In this document: positions 49,814 to 59,118 of the stretch, piece by piece
How the letters are laid out: the number at the start of each line of letters is the position of its first letter
Numbering within the stretch: position 1 is the first letter of the stretch
Assembly: GCA_016787225.1 (NCBI GenBank)
Contig: JAEUUY010000011.1
Span: forward strand, 248,001 to 312,000
Source: Chitinophagales bacterium
Lineage (GTDB): Bacteria; Bacteroidota; Bacteroidia; Chitinophagales; JADJOU01
DNA length: 64,000 nucleotides
Reading direction: 5' to 3'
Position numbers and translations under genes: made by a program
The notes under the pieces: generated by a model
Databases searched by the model: none
Seen by the model: only the letters and a program-made list of their open reading frames with translations
What the model was told of the DNA's origin: nothing

Positions 49814-50896
49814 ATGGTGCCAGAATGTTTTAAAGAATTAGGTCATGACAAATATATACAAATCATCGGTATCATCATTCCCTCATGGGCTATCTTGATG
49901 ATAGTATTAGAAAGATTATTTCCATACACACCGCAAGTAAAGCTATTCCGCAGAGGCTTTTGGATGGATTTGGTATGGTACACCATCCTTCAGAGTAAAG
50001 TGCTGGAAATAGTCATTTTCACCTATATCATACTCAACTTGAAAAATTACTTAGGGCTTCAAGACTTTGGACCTATGAGCGGTATGAATTTTTGGCTATG
50101 CTTGTTTATATTTTTCATTACCCATGATTTCTACATGTACTGGATGCACCGCTTTCAGCACAACAATAAATATCTGTGGCGCACGCATGAAGCGCATCAC
50201 TCAGTACGCGAGGTCGATTGGTTAGCGGGGAGTCGTTCCCATTTCTCAGAAATTTTGATCAATCAGACGGTTGAATTTGCACCTATATTCTTTCTTTTAG
50301 ACACAGAAACTGCATCTTTTATGTATCCTGCCAAAGCCTTACTCGATGCGCTATGGGGCATGTGGATTCACGCCAATGTGAATGTCAATACTGGAAAACT
50401 ACAATATATCATTAATGGCCCTGAAATGCATCAATGGCATCATGCGAATCATCACGAAGTATTCTATAAGAACTATAGTACAAAAATCGCAGCCTGGGAT
50501 TGGATATTCGGTACGGGATTTCTACCTGGTCTGAAGCCTCTTAATTTTTATTTCCATAAGCCAAAAATGTTCGGTCTTCCATATGCCTATCCTAATGGAT
50601 TCTGGGATCAACTCGTGTTTGCCTTTCATCGATTTGACTTTAGATTCCTAGAGAATAAGACGTTCTATAAGTATTTATTAAACTTTCGTTATTACATTAC
50701 GACCTATGTGCTAGGACTATTCGGTGCTCGTGAAAATTGGGTTTCGAATGAGTTGTTTGATAAATCAAATATAAGATATGACCTTGATGACAACCATTGC
50801 TATGATGATCAAGGAATTAAATACTTTATGAAAGGCAGCCAACTCATATTTCATAAGGATGGGGATCAAGACGAATCTCTAGAAAAATTTGACTAG
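49814..50896 (+). CDS. Sterol desaturase/fatty acid hydroxylase superfamily membrane protein
   Basis: A 360-residue membrane di-iron oxygenase. The eight-His pattern is visible: HDFYMYWMHRFQHN, RTHEAHHSVRE, and MHQWHHANHHE. Four or five helices surround it. Family members hydroxylate or desaturate sterols, carotenoids, sphingolipids or fatty acids; the substrate is not inferable. The C-terminal ~100 residues (after WDWIFGTGF) form a soluble tail. Inner membrane. Confidence 0.9.
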   Translation: MVPECFKELGHDKYIQIIGIIIPSWAILMIVLERLFPYTPQVKLFRRGFWMDLVWYTILQSKVLEIVIFTYIILNLKNYLGLQDFGPMSGMNFWLCLFIFFITHDFYMYWMHRFQHNNKYLWRTHEAHHSVREVDWLAGSRSHFSEILINQTVEFAPIFFLLDTETASFMYPAKALLDALWGMWIHANVNVNTGKLQYIINGPEMHQWHHANHHEVFYKNYSTKIAAWDWIFGTGFLPGLKPLNFYFHKPKMFGLPYAYPNGFWDQLVFAFHRFDFRFLENKTFYKYLLNFRYYITTYVLGLFGARENWVSNELFDKSNIRYDLDDNHCYDDQGIKYFMKGSQLIFHKDGDQDESLEKFD

Positions 50897-52914: not shown

Positions 52915-54849
52915 TTATTCTACCAATCTAGCAAATCTCTTATTGGATTTTGGGAAATCAAGACCATAAGCTATCGCAGTAATTACGGCTGCTACTATTG
53001 CTGTCAATAAACTTTCATTACTAAATCTAAAAACTAATGTTGTTTTGTGTGAGACACATGTGATTAGCGCTCCAATAAAAATAGAAAGCAAAGCAAAGCA
53101 TTGGTATATACGCATTCTAAGCCAATAAGGTGTTTGGGCTTCACCACGCAATGACTCTTCGACAAATCGAAACAAACCATTAGCAATAAAATAAAAACCA
53201 ACTAAAAAATTTATTGGCATCTCTAAGAAATAAAATCGAATAAGAAATACGCCCGTTATAAAATTTGCAATCATAGAATACAACTGCGTTGGGTGTAAGA
53301 ATCTACCAGATAGTTCAGAAATTTTATTGACCCGCGACATAGGATGGTGAAATTGTATCCCCATTTTAGGTGAAGTTTGACATCCATGACAACAACCCTG
53401 CACAAGACATCTTAATCTGCCTATCATTTGTACCCATGGTGCTGCCATAACGAGAGCTCCTGCCAAAATAGAAGCTTCCAACGGAGTATACACTCCTAGA
53501 GTTATCACGGCAAATCCAGTGCCTACTATACTCCCATAGAAGCTATATGGTCTCTGTAATTTGGGGGAGCCTTCAATAAACTGAGCCCACAAAGCAGCTC
53601 CAAGAATAGCACTCAGAGTTAAAGACATGGTTGTAATAAATCGAAAGTCATGTAAGAAGCTCGAAATCAAAAATGCACCTATTAGACTGGCTAAGCCTGC
53701 ATAGATTCCGTGATGAATAAATCGTACATTTCTGTATCGCCATTCTATCCATGTATTCGCTATTTTCTCCGCTTTATTTTTAGCTGCAAACCATAGAGCT
53801 ATTCTGTATTCAATAATAAAATAAACAGCTAAACCCGCCAACACATCTAAGATGGTATGATTACCCGTTGTAAGGCAGCTCATAGAAATTAATGTGGCTA
53901 TGAAGAAGAACGCCGTCTTTAGAGTTGATAAAATTTGTGTATAGTATTTAGCCGATAACAAAGCCCACATTACGTGATACGATGGAAAAGCTGCGGCTGC
54001 GCTATCCATAGATCTCTCTAGTTTTATAAGTTCCGTCCAGCAAGAAGAAAAACTAAATTCTCTCTGCTCTACCACAAATGGTAAACAGAAATAAATACTA
54101 AAAACGATAATCATAGATAACCACGCATCAATAGTGAAATTTCTTAACTGCTCATTTGTCTTCAAAATGAACGGAACAAGCAAGGTAAAAATATAGACCG
54201 AGGAGTATGCAATTATGGTAAAATCTATTAGGGGAATATACTCATCTAACATCGTATTCGTAGAGATAGCAACCATTGGATTCCCTATAAAAACGAAAGC
54301 TTCATATAAAATTAACCACGGAATAAATATTAGAATAAAAGTGGCTAGCTTTGATTTTAAATTTGTTGATTGAGAATTCCCCTCGGCTAAAGATAAAAAT
54401 GGCTTGAATGCTTGGACACCAAAAAGCTTCTCTGTTTTCTCCTTCTCGAAACCTAGAACATAGGCTACAATCATAAATAAGAATAATGGGCTAACTAGCC
54501 AAAATCCCGATGAAGATTTAACCCAAATAGACAATCCGAATGACACAAGAATTGAGCCAAGATATATTGGATGACTTGTAAAAGAATATACCCCTTTACT
54601 TACAAATTTGTCTGGAGGATAGGCATTCATTGGTAAGCCTTCACCATAGTACCATAGAGAAAACATTCCAGAAAAAATGAAATAAAGTCCTATTCCAACA
54701 TTTAATAAACCTATATATGGATAGTCTGGTACTGGTATTTGTACTAAATTGTCAGTAGCACCAGCCCATAAAATAAGCAAATATGGCAGCACTACGACGA
54801 ATAAGCAACCGTAAATTATTTTACCTAAAATGTTTTTTACTTCTTCCAT
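52915..54849 (-). CDS. Three-domain membrane fusion: ICMT-like methyltransferase, PAP2/Aur1-like phosphatase, Lgt-like transferase
   Basis: A 644-residue polytopic protein with three recognisable parts. Residues 1-150: isoprenylcysteine/phospholipid methyltransferase-like (VSKGVYSFTSHPIYLGS, then FEKEKTEKLFG). Residues ~200-350: PAP2/Aur1-like, with FPSYH (H292) and TTGNHTILD (H331, D335); the first PAP2 motif is not clear. Residues ~400-600: prolipoprotein diacylglyceryl transferase-like, with MIGRLRCLVQGCCHGC replacing the GRxGNFxNxE loop of canonical Lgt, HPTQLYSM, and RFVEESLRG. All three domain types act on lipid or prenyl groups at the membrane. The start overlaps the upstream gene by 13 bp. 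It is last in a six-gene run headed by an ECF sigma factor. The substrate is unknown. Confidence 0.8.
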   Translation of the reverse strand: MEEVKNILGKIIYGCLFVVVLPYLLILWAGATDNLVQIPVPDYPYIGLLNVGIGLYFIFSGMFSLWYYGEGLPMNAYPPDKFVSKGVYSFTSHPIYLGSILVSFGLSIWVKSSSGFWLVSPLFLFMIVAYVLGFEKEKTEKLFGVQAFKPFLSLAEGNSQSTNLKSKLATFILIFIPWLILYEAFVFIGNPMVAISTNTMLDEYIPLIDFTIIAYSSVYIFTLLVPFILKTNEQLRNFTIDAWLSMIIVFSIYFCLPFVVEQREFSFSSCWTELIKLERSMDSAAAAFPSYHVMWALLSAKYYTQILSTLKTAFFFIATLISMSCLTTGNHTILDVLAGLAVYFIIEYRIALWFAAKNKAEKIANTWIEWRYRNVRFIHHGIYAGLASLIGAFLISSFLHDFRFITTMSLTLSAILGAALWAQFIEGSPKLQRPYSFYGSIVGTGFAVITLGVYTPLEASILAGALVMAAPWVQMIGRLRCLVQGCCHGCQTSPKMGIQFHHPMSRVNKISELSGRFLHPTQLYSMIANFITGVFLIRFYFLEMPINFLVGFYFIANGLFRFVEESLRGEAQTPYWLRMRIYQCFALLSIFIGALITCVSHKTTLVFRFSNESLLTAIVAAVITAIAYGLDFPKSNKRFARLVE

Positions 54850-55625
54850 TTTACGATTTCATATAGAGACCAACCCGTATTCATCATACTATCATTAACT
54901 TTGAAAATTGCTTTTGATTTAAACTTCACTTCTATAGTTTCTAGTATTCGTTTATTGATAATCCATTTTAGCCAATTTAGATTTTTAAGATGATTGGATA
55001 TTTTTCCTTCATAAATTACACTTGGGCTGAGAAAGTAAACTTGATATTTCCCACTGCCGAATACAAGCTTTTCATTATCTATGCTTCCATCTTCGTAATA
55101 GCTACTATTGTAATAAATTTTCCTTAAAGGATTAGACCCCTTCCATTCAATCCAAACGATACTGGTGTCTTGTGATAAATATCTCCCCCATCTTAGTTCA
55201 TCTATTGGCAGCTCCCATGGTGCCAAACTCATGTGAATCGTTTCTGAATAACCGAGCCCTCTGTAATTTATTCCGTCATAATATAGTGATACCGAAGCCA
55301 GAGGATGATGACAGTCCCAAACCAATTTTTCTTCCTGTATATTCTGATATAGTTCTTCTTTAACTCCGGTCTTTTTGCCGTTAAAGACAAATGTTATACC
55401 TAGTTTTTTATTTTTAAATGTAAAATCATTGTCTTGATTTGGTTTATCAGTTTTAGTTAGTGAAACTTTCTCTGTGGTAATATTCTCAGAATTATTAATA
55501 ATAATGCTGGAAAAATTGATTTTTATAATTAAGATATAAAGCTCTGCCCAATAAGCTATAAAACAATTTCCATTATTATCTATGACATCGAAGTATTTTT
55601 TTTCTAGGTTGAAGAGCTTTATCAT
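54837..55625 (-). CDS. CrtC/AttH-like (hydroxyneurosporene synthase-like) protein
   Basis: A 262-residue soluble, strand-rich protein. The block WDCHHPLASVSL ... RGLGYSETIHMSL ... PIDELRWGRYLS follows the pattern of carotenoid 1,2-hydratase/AttH lipocalin-like proteins (W-x-P-A, G-x-GY-x-D/E, and W-x-WGR). No signal peptide; the first ~40 residues contain hydrophobic strands only. Relatives hydrate isoprenoid double bonds or bind lipids. Overlaps the fusion gene by 13 bp and starts 6 bp after the glycosyltransferase gene. Family call is moderate. Confidence 0.65.
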   Translation of the reverse strand: MIKLFNLEKKYFDVIDNNGNCFIAYWAELYILIIKINFSSIIINNSENITTEKVSLTKTDKPNQDNDFTFKNKKLGITFVFNGKKTGVKEELYQNIQEEKLVWDCHHPLASVSLYYDGINYRGLGYSETIHMSLAPWELPIDELRWGRYLSQDTSIVWIEWKGSNPLRKIYYNSSYYEDGSIDNEKLVFGSGKYQVYFLSPSVIYEGKISNHLKNLNWLKWIINKRILETIEVKFKSKAIFKVNDSMMNTGWSLYEIVKWKK

Positions 55626-55631
55626 GTATAG

Positions 55632-56690
55632 TTATAATAAATGATCTTGCATATTCAATACGAGATTCTTTAATCTCCCCTCCACATCTCTTTCTTCCAC
55701 AAATTTCACCCATCCTTTTTCCTGCCAATAAGAAGCGAGATATTCCTGCTCAGGTTGACCAGCGGTAGGTACACAGATGATTTTTTGCATTTGTAGAATA
55801 TATAAATCTATCAAGGTAGAATAGCCACTGCGGCATATGATTCTTTCTGCTCGCGCTATATACTGAAGCGTCTCTTCATATCGCATACGAGAATGATGAA
55901 TGCAGTTTTTTGATTTATTCAATACATAATCTTGAGAAAAATTTCCCGCAATAAAAGTGACTTGGTATGGCAGCGTTTCGATGACTTTGAGATATTTTTT
56001 TTCTAACTCTGTTCGTCGAGGTTCTGGGCCTGATAGCAATACAAGCAGCTCGATAGGCTCAGCTTTGGGGTCACTCGCTACTTTCAAATCAGGAAAACCT
56101 ATCCATCGCTTGGGAATAGAAATATCGACATCCGTCATAGCTGCACTCAGCTTGACAGTCTCGATATCAGGAATCCATAATTCATCAAAAGGTTTAATTA
56201 ATTTATCTACAAATCGCTGCGATATGCGCTCTATAAAATTAGCTGTTACCAATTTCAATTGATGCGAAATGAGATAACTTTTTAATCCTACTAAGTAGCA
56301 GCCATACCGGTTGTCGGAAATCACCACATCGGGTTGATAGATTTTCTGATAGCGTCGCATGTGCAGCTGTTCTCGATATATGATCCAAAAACGTGTAAAG
56401 GATTGTAATATGATAAATAGAAAAAGAAAATTCTTCGACTTATATTTTATCTTATAAGACGGCAATGTATGTATAATAAGCTCTGGGAAACTGGTCTTGA
56501 GCATGCTCTCCGCTTCTCCATCGCTAAACAGAACGACCTTATTTCCTAAATTATGATAATGCTTAATAATAGGAATAGACCTCGTAGCATGACCCACACC
56601 CCAATTGAGTACCGCGTAGAATATAGTCTGATTTTGAATCAAGGGGAGTTGAAGCCCTATCTTTTCTTTTTGGAAGAATAGAGAATCCAT
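55632..56690 (-). CDS. MurG-like/MJ1255-type glycosyltransferase
   Basis: A 352-residue GT-B protein. N-terminal: TIFYAVLNWGVGHATRSIPI with HATR as the acceptor/phosphate loop; C-terminal: LLVLLSGPEPRRTELEK, then HHSRMRYEETLQYIARAERII, RSGYSTLIDL and VPTAGQPEQEYLA, as in MurG-like and MJ1255-type UDP-sugar transferases. It may glycosylate a lipid. The ATG at 56690 lies 34 bp inside the heme A synthase gene; a TTG at 56643 is a possible alternative just before the fold begins. Part of the sigma-headed operon. Confidence 0.82.
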   Translation of the reverse strand: MDSLFFQKEKIGLQLPLIQNQTIFYAVLNWGVGHATRSIPIIKHYHNLGNKVVLFSDGEAESMLKTSFPELIIHTLPSYKIKYKSKNFLFLFIILQSFTRFWIIYREQLHMRRYQKIYQPDVVISDNRYGCYLVGLKSYLISHQLKLVTANFIERISQRFVDKLIKPFDELWIPDIETVKLSAAMTDVDISIPKRWIGFPDLKVASDPKAEPIELLVLLSGPEPRRTELEKKYLKVIETLPYQVTFIAGNFSQDYVLNKSKNCIHHSRMRYEETLQYIARAERIICRSGYSTLIDLYILQMQKIICVPTAGQPEQEYLASYWQEKGWVKFVEERDVEGRLKNLVLNMQDHLL

Positions 56691-57718
56691 AGGTAGGCAG
56701 CTAATAATAGGAAAGCTGTAATTTGATGAATAACACCTAATGTAATAGGAATTTTTCCATGACTATAGCTTACAGTAAAAATACCTAAAATAATTTGTGA
56801 TATTAACAGAATATAGTATAGCAGATAACTAGGAGCGATGAACATTTTCACTCTATTGACAATAAAAAACCATGCAGAGGCGAAAAATAAGAGGTAGGCT
56901 GTCAACCTATGTACTACTTGAACTATCAATTTTACATTAGGATTGGGTTCATAATCATTCCAATGAGCCCATTGTATAGCAGGACTCGTATTCCATATGT
57001 CCTGAAAAAGCTGGGTTTTAGCCAATAGCAATGGATAAGGAAACACCAAGGCGGCTTTCATACCAGCCATCAAAGCTCCGAAAGCTAATTGAATAACCAA
57101 GAAAGTTCCTATCCACTTCCATAAATATCGGTCGATTAACTCAATACGTTCGGCCGAATGAGCATGCGCATACTGATAATAGGTATAAGTAAGATATGAA
57201 AACAAACTCGTAGCCAAGATAAGATGTATTAATAGATTATAGGCATTGACCCAGGTGCGTTTATCATCATTAAGGCCACTGGCTACCATTAGCCAACCAA
57301 AAGTAGCGGAGAGTGAGGCTAAAAAAATAACTACGAGTAGCCTTTTAATAAGTCTCACCTCAATTTTTTTTCTCACGATAAAATAAAAGAAAGGGATTGC
57401 AAAAACTATACCCATAATTCTAGCCCATAGTCTATGGAAATATTCCCAGAAATAAATTCGTTTAAATTCATAGAGAGACATATCCCTATGTATAGACTCA
57501 AACTGTTTCTTTGCGAAGGTTTTATATTTTTCAAAAGAAATCGTCCATTCCTTTTCATTCAATGGAGGCAGGGTTCCTTTAATCACTTCCCATTCGGTAA
57601 TAGATAGTCCAGAATCTGTAAGTCGTGTGATACCCCCTATTAAAATTTGCACTAAGACCATTAAGCAACCTATCAATAACCAAATAGAAACTGCTCTTGA
57701 AATCTTAGCGTTTACCAT
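56657..57718 (-). CDS. ctaA: Heme A synthase (CtaA/COX15)
   Basis: A 353-residue, eight-helix protein with the COX15 layout: IGGITRLTDSGLSITEW, FKRIYFWEYFHRLWAR (heme His), LLIHLILATSLF, VQVVHRLTAYLL and LGVIHQITAF. It oxidises heme O to heme A for cytochrome oxidase. Length and pattern match the COX15 class. It lies 4 bp after the putative anti-sigma gene; why it is in this operon is not obvious. Confidence 0.93.
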   Translation of the reverse strand: MVNAKISRAVSIWLLIGCLMVLVQILIGGITRLTDSGLSITEWEVIKGTLPPLNEKEWTISFEKYKTFAKKQFESIHRDMSLYEFKRIYFWEYFHRLWARIMGIVFAIPFFYFIVRKKIEVRLIKRLLVVIFLASLSATFGWLMVASGLNDDKRTWVNAYNLLIHLILATSLFSYLTYTYYQYAHAHSAERIELIDRYLWKWIGTFLVIQLAFGALMAGMKAALVFPYPLLLAKTQLFQDIWNTSPAIQWAHWNDYEPNPNVKLIVQVVHRLTAYLLFFASAWFFIVNRVKMFIAPSYLLYYILLISQIILGIFTVSYSHGKIPITLGVIHQITAFLLLAAYLWILYSSKKKR

Positions 57719-57722
57719 AACC

Positions 57723-58508
57723 TTAGTTTTCCATATTTTTCAGAATAGTTTCTGCTTGAGATTTCATAGGGTTATCGTAACTCTTTAACTTTCTAAGAAT
57801 TTCCTTGGCCTCTTCGCGATTGCCTTGCTTGTATATTTCTTGTGCTTGATTAAACAATTCCCTTTCTTTTTGAGATACAGCTGCCGCAGGATTAGATGCA
57901 TTACTTGAAGCAGGATTGATATCGTTATTGATATCCCCTAAACTTGAACTTGATTGACTCTGATTCTTCTTAGTCGCCACTTTCTGTTTAGTGATGGAGA
58001 CAGAATCTACGGGCATGCTTGCTGCTACCGCAGCATTCGGAATAGTTTCCATAGGCAGGCTGGATGAGTCTGCATAAGATTGAATACTAGAAACAGTTTC
58101 TGCTTCCACCATGGTCTGATCTTGAGCATCTACACCAGGGCTACTACTTAGAAAATAATAGATGCCATATCCTAAAATACCCATTAAAATAATGCCCGTA
58201 ATAATAATACCAACAATTCTCCAGTTAATTGGCATTTCTTTCTTAGTCTCAACATTTTCTCTGGATTTGAGAATCTTAGATTCTGAAACCCCTGTATATT
58301 GCTGCACTTCATTTATGAGCAGTGCTACAGACTGATAAGCCAGTGCTCTGTTTTCTTTATCTCCTATGGTATTTACTGCTTCCTTTAAAAAAGGATCTTT
58401 CTCACATTGTATCTCTAATTCTTTTTCTCTTTCAGGGGACAATTTATATTGTAAAAATTGAATCCACTCTTTAGTAGAAAACATTTTAAACTTTCTCTCT
58501 ATACTCAT
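57723..58508 (-). CDS. Probable anti-sigma factor, single-pass membrane protein
   Basis: A 261-residue protein: N-terminal cytoplasmic helical part (1-95; WIQFLQYKLSPEREKELEIQ), one membrane helix (about 97-120; VGIIITGIILMGILGYGIYY), then a Ser/Ala/Asn-rich periplasmic linker and a C-terminal TPR-like helix pair (NQAQEIYKQGNREEAKEIL). It follows an ECF sigma gene by 19 bp, which together with the topology makes an anti-sigma role likely, though no ZAS motif is seen. ATG at 58484 is an alternative start with a better purine-rich upstream stretch. Confidence 0.65.
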   Translation of the reverse strand: MSIERKFKMFSTKEWIQFLQYKLSPEREKELEIQCEKDPFLKEAVNTIGDKENRALAYQSVALLINEVQQYTGVSESKILKSRENVETKKEMPINWRIVGIIITGIILMGILGYGIYYFLSSSPGVDAQDQTMVEAETVSSIQSYADSSSLPMETIPNAAVAASMPVDSVSITKQKVATKKNQSQSSSSLGDINNDINPASSNASNPAAAVSQKERELFNQAQEIYKQGNREEAKEILRKLKSYDNPMKSQAETILKNMEN

Positions 58509-58527
58509 TTTCGTTGTTTATCCTAGA

Positions 58528-59118
58528 TTATAATCCTCTATTCTCTAAGTAGGTTTTCAAAAGACGTTTGCCATTTTGAATATTTGTCTTTACTTGATTG
58601 ACGCTAAACCCTGTCGATTCTGCAACCTCCTGATAAGATTTATTTTGCATATAGAATAAGTCAATACAAATTTTTTGATTCTCATTAAGTGTATTGATTG
58701 CCAATCGCAAATTGTTCGCATCTATTTTGGATGTCTTATCCTCAGAAGCATTAATAAAAAGTTCGTGATCGTCTTTACTCGCAAGCTCATCGATGAGGAT
58801 ATTTTTCGAATCATTATTTCCTGCATTCTTTTTCTTAGATTCTATAGTGCATAGATTCTTTGTTAGTTGATACAACCAGCTAGAAAAATCTTTCACTTCA
58901 ATTCTTTTTAAATCGGAAGCTATCTTATGAAATACAGTCATAGTAAGATCCTCCGCTTCTTTTTGGTTTTTTAATACCCCCAATGCTACTCCAAAAACAC
59001 TGGGCAAATAACGAAGAAACAATTCTCCTAAATAGGAATTATCATGAGAGAATCGATATTTACTTATCAATTCCTCATCCGTAAGACCACTATTTAATTT
59101 AGATCCGAAAACTGCCAC
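58528..59118 (-). CDS. ECF-type RNA polymerase sigma factor
   Basis: A 196-residue sigma-70 family protein. Region 2 (about 30-100): YLGELFLRYLPSVFGVALG, then DLTMTVFHKIASDL, DFSSWLYQLTKNLC. Region 4 (about 135-195): LNENQKICIDLFYMQNKSYQ, EVAESTGFSVNQVKTNIQNG. It heads a minus-strand run of six tightly packed genes (anti-sigma, heme A synthase, glycosyltransferase, CrtC-like, membrane fusion). Divergent from pyrD. The 85 bp between them (59119-59203) carry no clear promoter for the sigma gene. Confidence 0.92.
   Translation of the reverse strand: MAVFGSKLNSGLTDEELISKYRFSHDNSYLGELFLRYLPSVFGVALGVLKNQKEAEDLTMTVFHKIASDLKRIEVKDFSSWLYQLTKNLCTIESKKKNAGNNDSKNILIDELASKDDHELFINASEDKTSKIDANNLRLAINTLNENQKICIDLFYMQNKSYQEVAESTGFSVNQVKTNIQNGKRLLKTYLENRGL

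Follow-up and report, generated by a model that had tools for sequence, protein, structure and literature searches.

A two-gene cassette, probably for lipid tailoring, with an Lgt-like domain predicted to be inverted in the membrane

Within a 64,000-nucleotide stretch of DNA from a Chitinophagales bacterium (assembly GCA_016787225.1, contig JAEUUY010000011.1, positions 248,001 to 312,000; the window) two adjacent minus-strand genes specify a 262-residue protein (54837–55625; the partner) and a 644-residue membrane protein (52915–54849; the fusion), the latter joining a PEMT/ICMT-like methyltransferase, an Aur1-like PAP2 domain and an LGT-like domain. They are strongly conserved as a near-obligate pair and almost certainly form a two-gene unit. 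As a whole we read them, with a little better than even confidence, as a horizontally spread lipid-tailoring cassette with an inverted LGT domain; a lipid-biosynthetic role for the cassette is likely. An earlier sequence-only reading of this DNA saw the fusion beside a CrtC-like protein as probably active on lipids or isoprenoids, which the families and folds described below bear out, and placed both genes in a six-gene, sigma-headed operon, from which they must be separated.

The fusion had been recognised correctly as a three-domain protein, all domains scoring above their curated Pfam cut-offs: PEMT (residues 46–144, 54418–54714) [1.7e-9], PAP2_3 (residues 196–346, 53812–54264) [2.4e-12] and LGT (matched at residues 434–597) [2.1e-16; 60.4 bits against a cut-off of 24.9]. 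When 44 family members were aligned and scanned, LGT was matched in 44, PEMT in 43 and PAP2_3 in 40, and since the three domains recur in this manner the fusion is not an artefact of open reading frame (ORF) prediction. Its structural model, with a predicted local distance difference test score (pLDDT) of 91, has about 18 predicted transmembrane (TM) helices with both termini inside. Residues 361–603 (53041–53769) align with E. coli Lgt (5azb) over 229 residues and the full seven-helix fold (Z 16.5), and the portion up to residue 353 matches Aur1/inositol phosphorylceramide synthase 9vj4 (Z 13.8), followed by SMSr and LpxE.

The catalytic residues of the fusion are retained. The methyltransferase motif HPxY...E has H93 in 40 of the 44 members and P94, Y96 and E135 in every one, and the PAP2 triad (H292, H331, D335) is intact in 43. 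Residues R478, R561, E565 and R568 of the LGT domain, equivalent to E. coli R143, R239, E243 and R246, are present in 44/44, as is an invariant GCCHG motif. In E. coli Lgt R143 has been called catalytically essential, and no tested substitution at R239, E243 or R246 complemented (PMC4728403). The position of H103, the peptide-acceptor histidine of the HGGL motif, is occupied by tyrosine (34 members) or phenylalanine (10 members), never by the histidine, and H103Y is dead in the E. coli enzyme (PMC4728403); this loss is suggestive of a changed acceptor. The cassette is not the housekeeping Lgt of this organism, whose genome has a separate, likely canonical copy.

Lgt is known as the enzyme which lipidates lipoproteins, its active site facing the periplasm. 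The topology of the LGT domain was examined through helix parity and through lysine plus arginine (K+R) counts in the loops, that is, the positive-inside rule, in the 44 fusions and 51 free-standing Lgts. When helices are counted from the side of the PAP2 active site, those of the methyltransferase and LGT fall on the opposite one, and the loops of a fusion contain 5.3 K+R on the PAP2-site side versus 25.4 on the other. In the LGT domain itself the mean is 12.7 on the active side versus 1.3 opposite, the active side being the positive one in 44/44 fusions, whereas 48 of the 51 free-standing Lgts show the opposite bias. The latter is seen in E. coli Lgt (6 versus 13), the active site of which lies on the periplasmic side according to the structural paper (PMC4728403), in this genome's own Lgt (7 versus 22) and in the free-standing GCCYG-type protein L028 (6 versus 17, canonical). 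A PEMT-LGT variant without PAP2, found in genome G372, also appears inverted (18 versus 1).

The methyltransferase and LGT sites are thus predicted to be cytosolic and the PAP2 site periplasmic; for the methyltransferase and PAP2 this agrees with the supply of S-adenosylmethionine (SAM) and with the usual PAP2 enzymes. We consider it likely that the LGT site faces the cytosol, inverted relative to Lgt. An extra C-terminal TM helix (residues 611–629, 52963–53019), absent from canonical Lgt, restores parity and brings a K/R-rich tail (VDFPxSNRRFSRL) to the cytosol, which is what an inverted domain of odd helix number needs for a cytosolic C-terminus. Given the predicted cytosolic orientation of the domain and the absence of the HGGL histidine, the lipoprotein modification contemplated in the sequence-only reading is unlikely.

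No supported Pfam match was obtained for any of 35 members of the partner family, and a search of PDB sequences with the partner profile yielded nothing beyond a chance hit. An AlphaFold2 model built from the 35 homologues (pLDDT 96) nevertheless possesses a CrtC/AttH two-domain, lipocalin-like beta fold along nearly its whole length, and the CrtC-like label given from the letters was in this respect correct. Comparison with VIA-align gave two fungal [4+2] pericyclase entries (7e22 and 7dmn, Z 22.1), Fsa2 (Z 21.7), CghA (Z 21.4), 25-phosphosteroid lyase (Z 19.2), NE1406/AttH (Z 19.2) and kievitone hydratase (Z 17.8), the next-best match after this group reaching a Z of only 8.2. By eye the partner has neither a signal peptide nor a TM segment. 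The model places it in a fold which handles hydrophobic polyenes, steroids and flavonoids; with 8–10% identity to these relatives its reaction cannot be read off the fold.

A scan of GTDB species contigs gave 192 relatives of the fusion, the best 80 of which, full-length or nearly so, were examined as loci. These 80 come from Bacteroidota, Ignavibacteriota, Acidobacteriota, Gemmatimonadota, Planctomycetota, Verrucomicrobiota, Myxococcota, Zixibacteria, Calditrichota, KSB1 and Pseudomonadota. The carriers are patchy and largely environmental metagenome-assembled genomes (MAGs), the pair being found in cultured Chitinophaga hostae, Minicystis rosea, Actibacterium atlanticum and Paenimyroides tangerinum. 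The partner gene lies upstream on the same strand in 76 of the 80 loci, mostly overlapping the fusion gene; three of the other loci (L059, L079 and L105) stop at a contig edge and L101 contains an N-run with only below-threshold resemblance to the partner. Within the phylum (395 genomes) a full-length fusion occurs in seven further genomes (33–48% identity), each with the partner gene adjacent and upstream, and the partner profile matches exactly the same genomes plus G372, which, by virtue of its variant without PAP2, counts among the nine holding both proteins. Pairwise distances of partner and fusion across loci are correlated at r=0.84 (shuffled maximum 0.13), a value to which shared phylogeny contributes. 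No other broadly conserved neighbour gene family was found around the best 80 loci: only the partner travels with the fusion, and not the six-gene set. The phyla are interleaved in the fusion tree, with strong support at several nodes, and the window's sequence groups with Paenimyroides, Neisseria and a Cardiobacteriaceae bin. The wide, patchy distribution favours horizontal transfer. In P. tangerinum the cassette occurs on two scaffolds (L060 and L061) with identical flanking layout, either a recent duplication or an assembly duplicate.

The six minus-strand ORFs in which the pair had been included do lie as closely as was claimed (gaps of 19, 4 and 6 bp, overlaps of 34 and 13 bp). The first (58528–59118) matches Sigma70 regions 2 and 4 in Pfam and is, as labelled, an extracytoplasmic function (ECF) sigma factor; likewise 56657–57718 specifies heme A synthase CtaA (COX15-CtaA) [5.5e-72] and 55632–56690 a MurG/MJ1255-like glycosyltransferase (GT) with a GT1/GT28-type Pfam match. 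The anti-sigma label of 57723–58508 stands on position and one apparent TM segment; the Pfam scan gave this protein no family above cut-off, anti-sigma families included. A Bacteroidota promoter-like pattern was present at 0 sites in the six-gene region and in no excess across the window.

The sigma, putative anti-sigma, CtaA and GT genes are an ancestral four-gene operon, of which GT is the last member and outside the cassette. Two genomes of the same genus (G395 and G397) have rpiB followed directly by GT-CtaA-anti-sigma-sigma, an empty site. A member of the family (G399) likewise carries all four genes, and on a short contig of G398 sigma, anti-sigma and CtaA are found with GT matched beside them at the contig edge. 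Only this one of the genus genomes searched has a full-length fusion, the cassette lying between GT and rpiB at the 3' end of the sigma/CtaA operon, and in other genomes none of the four adjoins the fusion. Since the set is intact without the fusion in relatives, we recognise an old operon and, at a variable site after it, a two-gene cassette. The six genes are therefore not conserved together, their reading as one dedicated pathway is not supported, and the empty sites in same-genus genomes rule out a conserved six-gene operon. ECF or envelope-stress control would amount, for the cassette, to a local read-through effect at most.

The GC content of the fusion gene (0.360) equals that of the window (0.358) closely enough that composition does not flag it as foreign, and the acquisition may therefore be old; the partner gene is at 0.313. 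With composition uninformative, the claim of transfer rests on presence and absence and on the tree; formally, the relatives could instead have lost the cassette. A plasmid copy of the cassette was searched for and none was found. In same-genus G396 (locus L162, 1160–4029) rpiB and GT are separated by three unrelated ORFs. The rpiB–GT interval, filled differently there and here, might be an insertion hot spot. Two genes past rpiB an ORF (window 49814–50896) resembles by eye a sterol desaturase/fatty acid hydroxylase; as it is kept across the genus it is not part of the cassette.

Neighbouring genes offer some hints as to substrate. A UbiA-type prenyltransferase gene lies directly upstream of the partner in six acidobacterial loci (L066, L075, L084, L090, L097 and L109, mostly Bryobacterales), a hint of an isoprenoid, and an adenosylhomocysteinase gene 51 bp upstream in Paenimyroides is a hint of methylation. 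In acidobacterial locus L120 (1–4144) an ATP-binding cassette (ABC) ATPase/permease pair is situated between partner and fusion; it is homologous to the pair in the G372 cassette (44% and 35% identity for ATPase and permease), a hint of export. An ABC exporter is not an obligate third component, the permease being absent from the other eight genomes with the module that were searched. The G372 cluster (L045, 5705–12148) has the appearance of a small biosynthetic gene cluster: CrtC-like protein, cytochrome P450, PEMT-LGT without PAP2, ABC ATPase, permease and a pyridoxal phosphate (PLP)-dependent amino-acid decarboxylase. Its PEMT-LGT protein used as a query matched many genomes, through single domains only. 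A third LGT-domain protein, of 249 residues, was observed at L135 (G000:C26:256358-257011 plus flanks) beside a radical-SAM ORF; judged by eye, the cysteines of this ORF are arranged much as in the tetraether-synthase/MJ0619 type.

As a hypothesis for the acceptor, the order of the steps and the final lipid, and as the scheme that suits the observations best, we suggest that the soluble partner would hold a hydrophobic acceptor on the cytosolic side, and may hydrate, dehydrate or cyclise it. We picture the acceptor as probably hydrophobic in the manner of an isoprenoid or polyene, the isoprenoid-like identity being a tentative choice. Because the catalytic residues are retained, we infer that the LGT-like domain, with its Arg/Arg/Glu/Arg centre, might move diacylglyceryl from inner-leaflet phosphatidylglycerol (PG) to this acceptor and not to a lipobox cysteine; for and against such transfer to a non-protein acceptor our judgement is evenly balanced. 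The PEMT/ICMT domain would then methylate the product with cytosolic SAM, the product would cross the membrane, in two loci probably via the co-encoded ABC exporter, and the Aur1-like PAP2 site would remove or exchange phosphate on the product or a precursor on the periplasmic side.

Several observations weigh against this scheme. The nearest NCBIfam models to the UbiA proteins are PRK12884 and archaeal-type geranylgeranylglyceryl phosphate (GGGP) prenyltransferases, all below cut-off, and only a small number of loci have a UbiA or ABC neighbour. The PAP2 catalytic histidines are lost in L124 (KSB1) and degenerate in G042 (L044), where the LGT and PEMT motifs are kept, and the PAP2 step must therefore be dispensable in some carriers. 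This genome's own likely housekeeping Lgt is also without H103 (leucine there) and N146, so that these losses alone are no proof of a new acceptor. Three control Lgts (L017, L188 and L213) break the charge rule and seem to be artefacts of the ORF, the alignment or an N-terminal extension, and the cytosolic orientation itself we infer from prediction.

One might instead imagine, though we think it unlikely, that the product is a betaine-lipid-like, methylated lipid with a non-phosphorus head group: LGT would act on an amino-acid-derived small molecule, PEMT would N-methylate it, PAP2 would recycle phosphate and the partner would carry the lipid or substrate. A diacylglyceryl transferase and a phospholipid-methyltransferase-type domain on one cytosolic face are the chemistry required, and the G372 cluster has its decarboxylase downstream; that gene is, however, found in one locus only, and the CrtC/AttH-fold pocket and UbiA neighbours suit an isoprenoid better. 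Rather unlikely, too, is an LGT-like domain which is no longer a transferase and merely binds PG, or hydrolyses it to diacylglycerol (DAG) and glycerol 1-phosphate (G1P), to feed a main transfer by the PAP2/Aur1-like domain. The crystal work on Lgt inferred a hydrolysis of PG that yields DAG (PMC4728403), phospho-head-group transfer is the reaction of Aur1-type enzymes, and nearly all members keep the PAP2 triad; PAP2 is nonetheless the least conserved domain, absent or damaged in G372, G042 and L124 where LGT and PEMT persist, and the two sites are predicted on opposite membrane faces. A catabolic cassette, degrading or detoxifying a hydrophobic compound as 25-phosphosteroid lyase does in cholesterol breakdown, is improbable: that lyase shares the partner's fold and the patchy, environmental distribution would suit it, yet no catabolic genes are conserved nearby, and it is difficult to see where in such a route an LGT domain of intact centre would act. 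Most improbable is the ECF-controlled six-gene envelope pathway with periplasmic protein lipidation, for which tight packing makes co-transcription plausible and the LGT catalytic residues are kept, in view of upstream genes that live without the cassette in the genus and family genomes searched and are not near it elsewhere, an LGT domain predicted inverted, the replacement of H103 by Y/F, the H103Y form of the E. coli enzyme having no activity (PMC4728403), and the genome's own likely canonical Lgt.

If the lipid-tailoring reading is true, diacylglyceryl-transfer chemistry has been flipped in its membrane orientation and put to use on non-protein acceptors, and the cassette would be the sign of a lipid so far overlooked in many uncultivated phyla, the inverted Lgt part suggesting an undescribed route to a membrane lipid. 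That the inverted Lgt relative and the lipocalin-fold enzyme make a new class of diacylglyceryl-linked, methylated isoprenoid- or polyene-type membrane lipid, carried by a mobile cassette in some ten phyla, is a speculative extension which we regard as doubtful.

Each domain of the fusion and partner falls within a known superfamily; neither the families nor the open-access literature searched contained the three-domain fusion, its lipocalin-fold partner or the inverted orientation, in keeping with the earlier statement that no description was known. Searches of that literature for an Lgt/PAP2/methyltransferase/CrtC fusion, for Lgt paralogues and for an inverted Lgt gave no description, and in its passages on these families the lipocone paper names Lgt and PAP2, not this fusion (PMC12419801). 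The free-standing GCCYG-type Lgt paralogues such as L028 share the GCC.G motif and include the closest free-standing LGT (73 bits); L028 differs in its canonical orientation by charge and single domain, and the ORFs read in its 3.4-kb locus include no CrtC-like gene. With the CrtC/AttH superfamily the partner shares the two-domain beta fold (Z 17.6–22.1), differing in its low identity, its shorter length and its linkage to the fusion in nearly every locus. The methyltransferase resembles ICMT/PEMT membrane enzymes (PF04140, PF04191) in its above-cut-off PEMT match and its HPxY and Glu motifs, and is here part of a fusion. Aur1/inositol phosphorylceramide synthase and other PAP2_3 enzymes (9vj4, 9ivc and SMSr 8ijq; Z 13.8, 13.1 and 12.5) share the fold and, by motif alignment, PSxH and HxxxD motifs at matching positions, whereas the domain described here is embedded in a fusion and lost or degenerate in some relatives. 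Finally, with E. coli Lgt, the phosphatidylglycerol:prolipoprotein diacylglyceryl transferase (PDB 5azb; PF01790), the fusion has in common the seven-helix fold, the position of the GR...G signature and the invariant equivalents of R143, R239, E243 and R246; unlike Lgt, its domain is placed after PEMT and PAP2, is predicted to be inverted, has Y/F for H103 and an invariant GCCHG, and is accompanied by an extra C-terminal TM helix and a near-obligate soluble partner.

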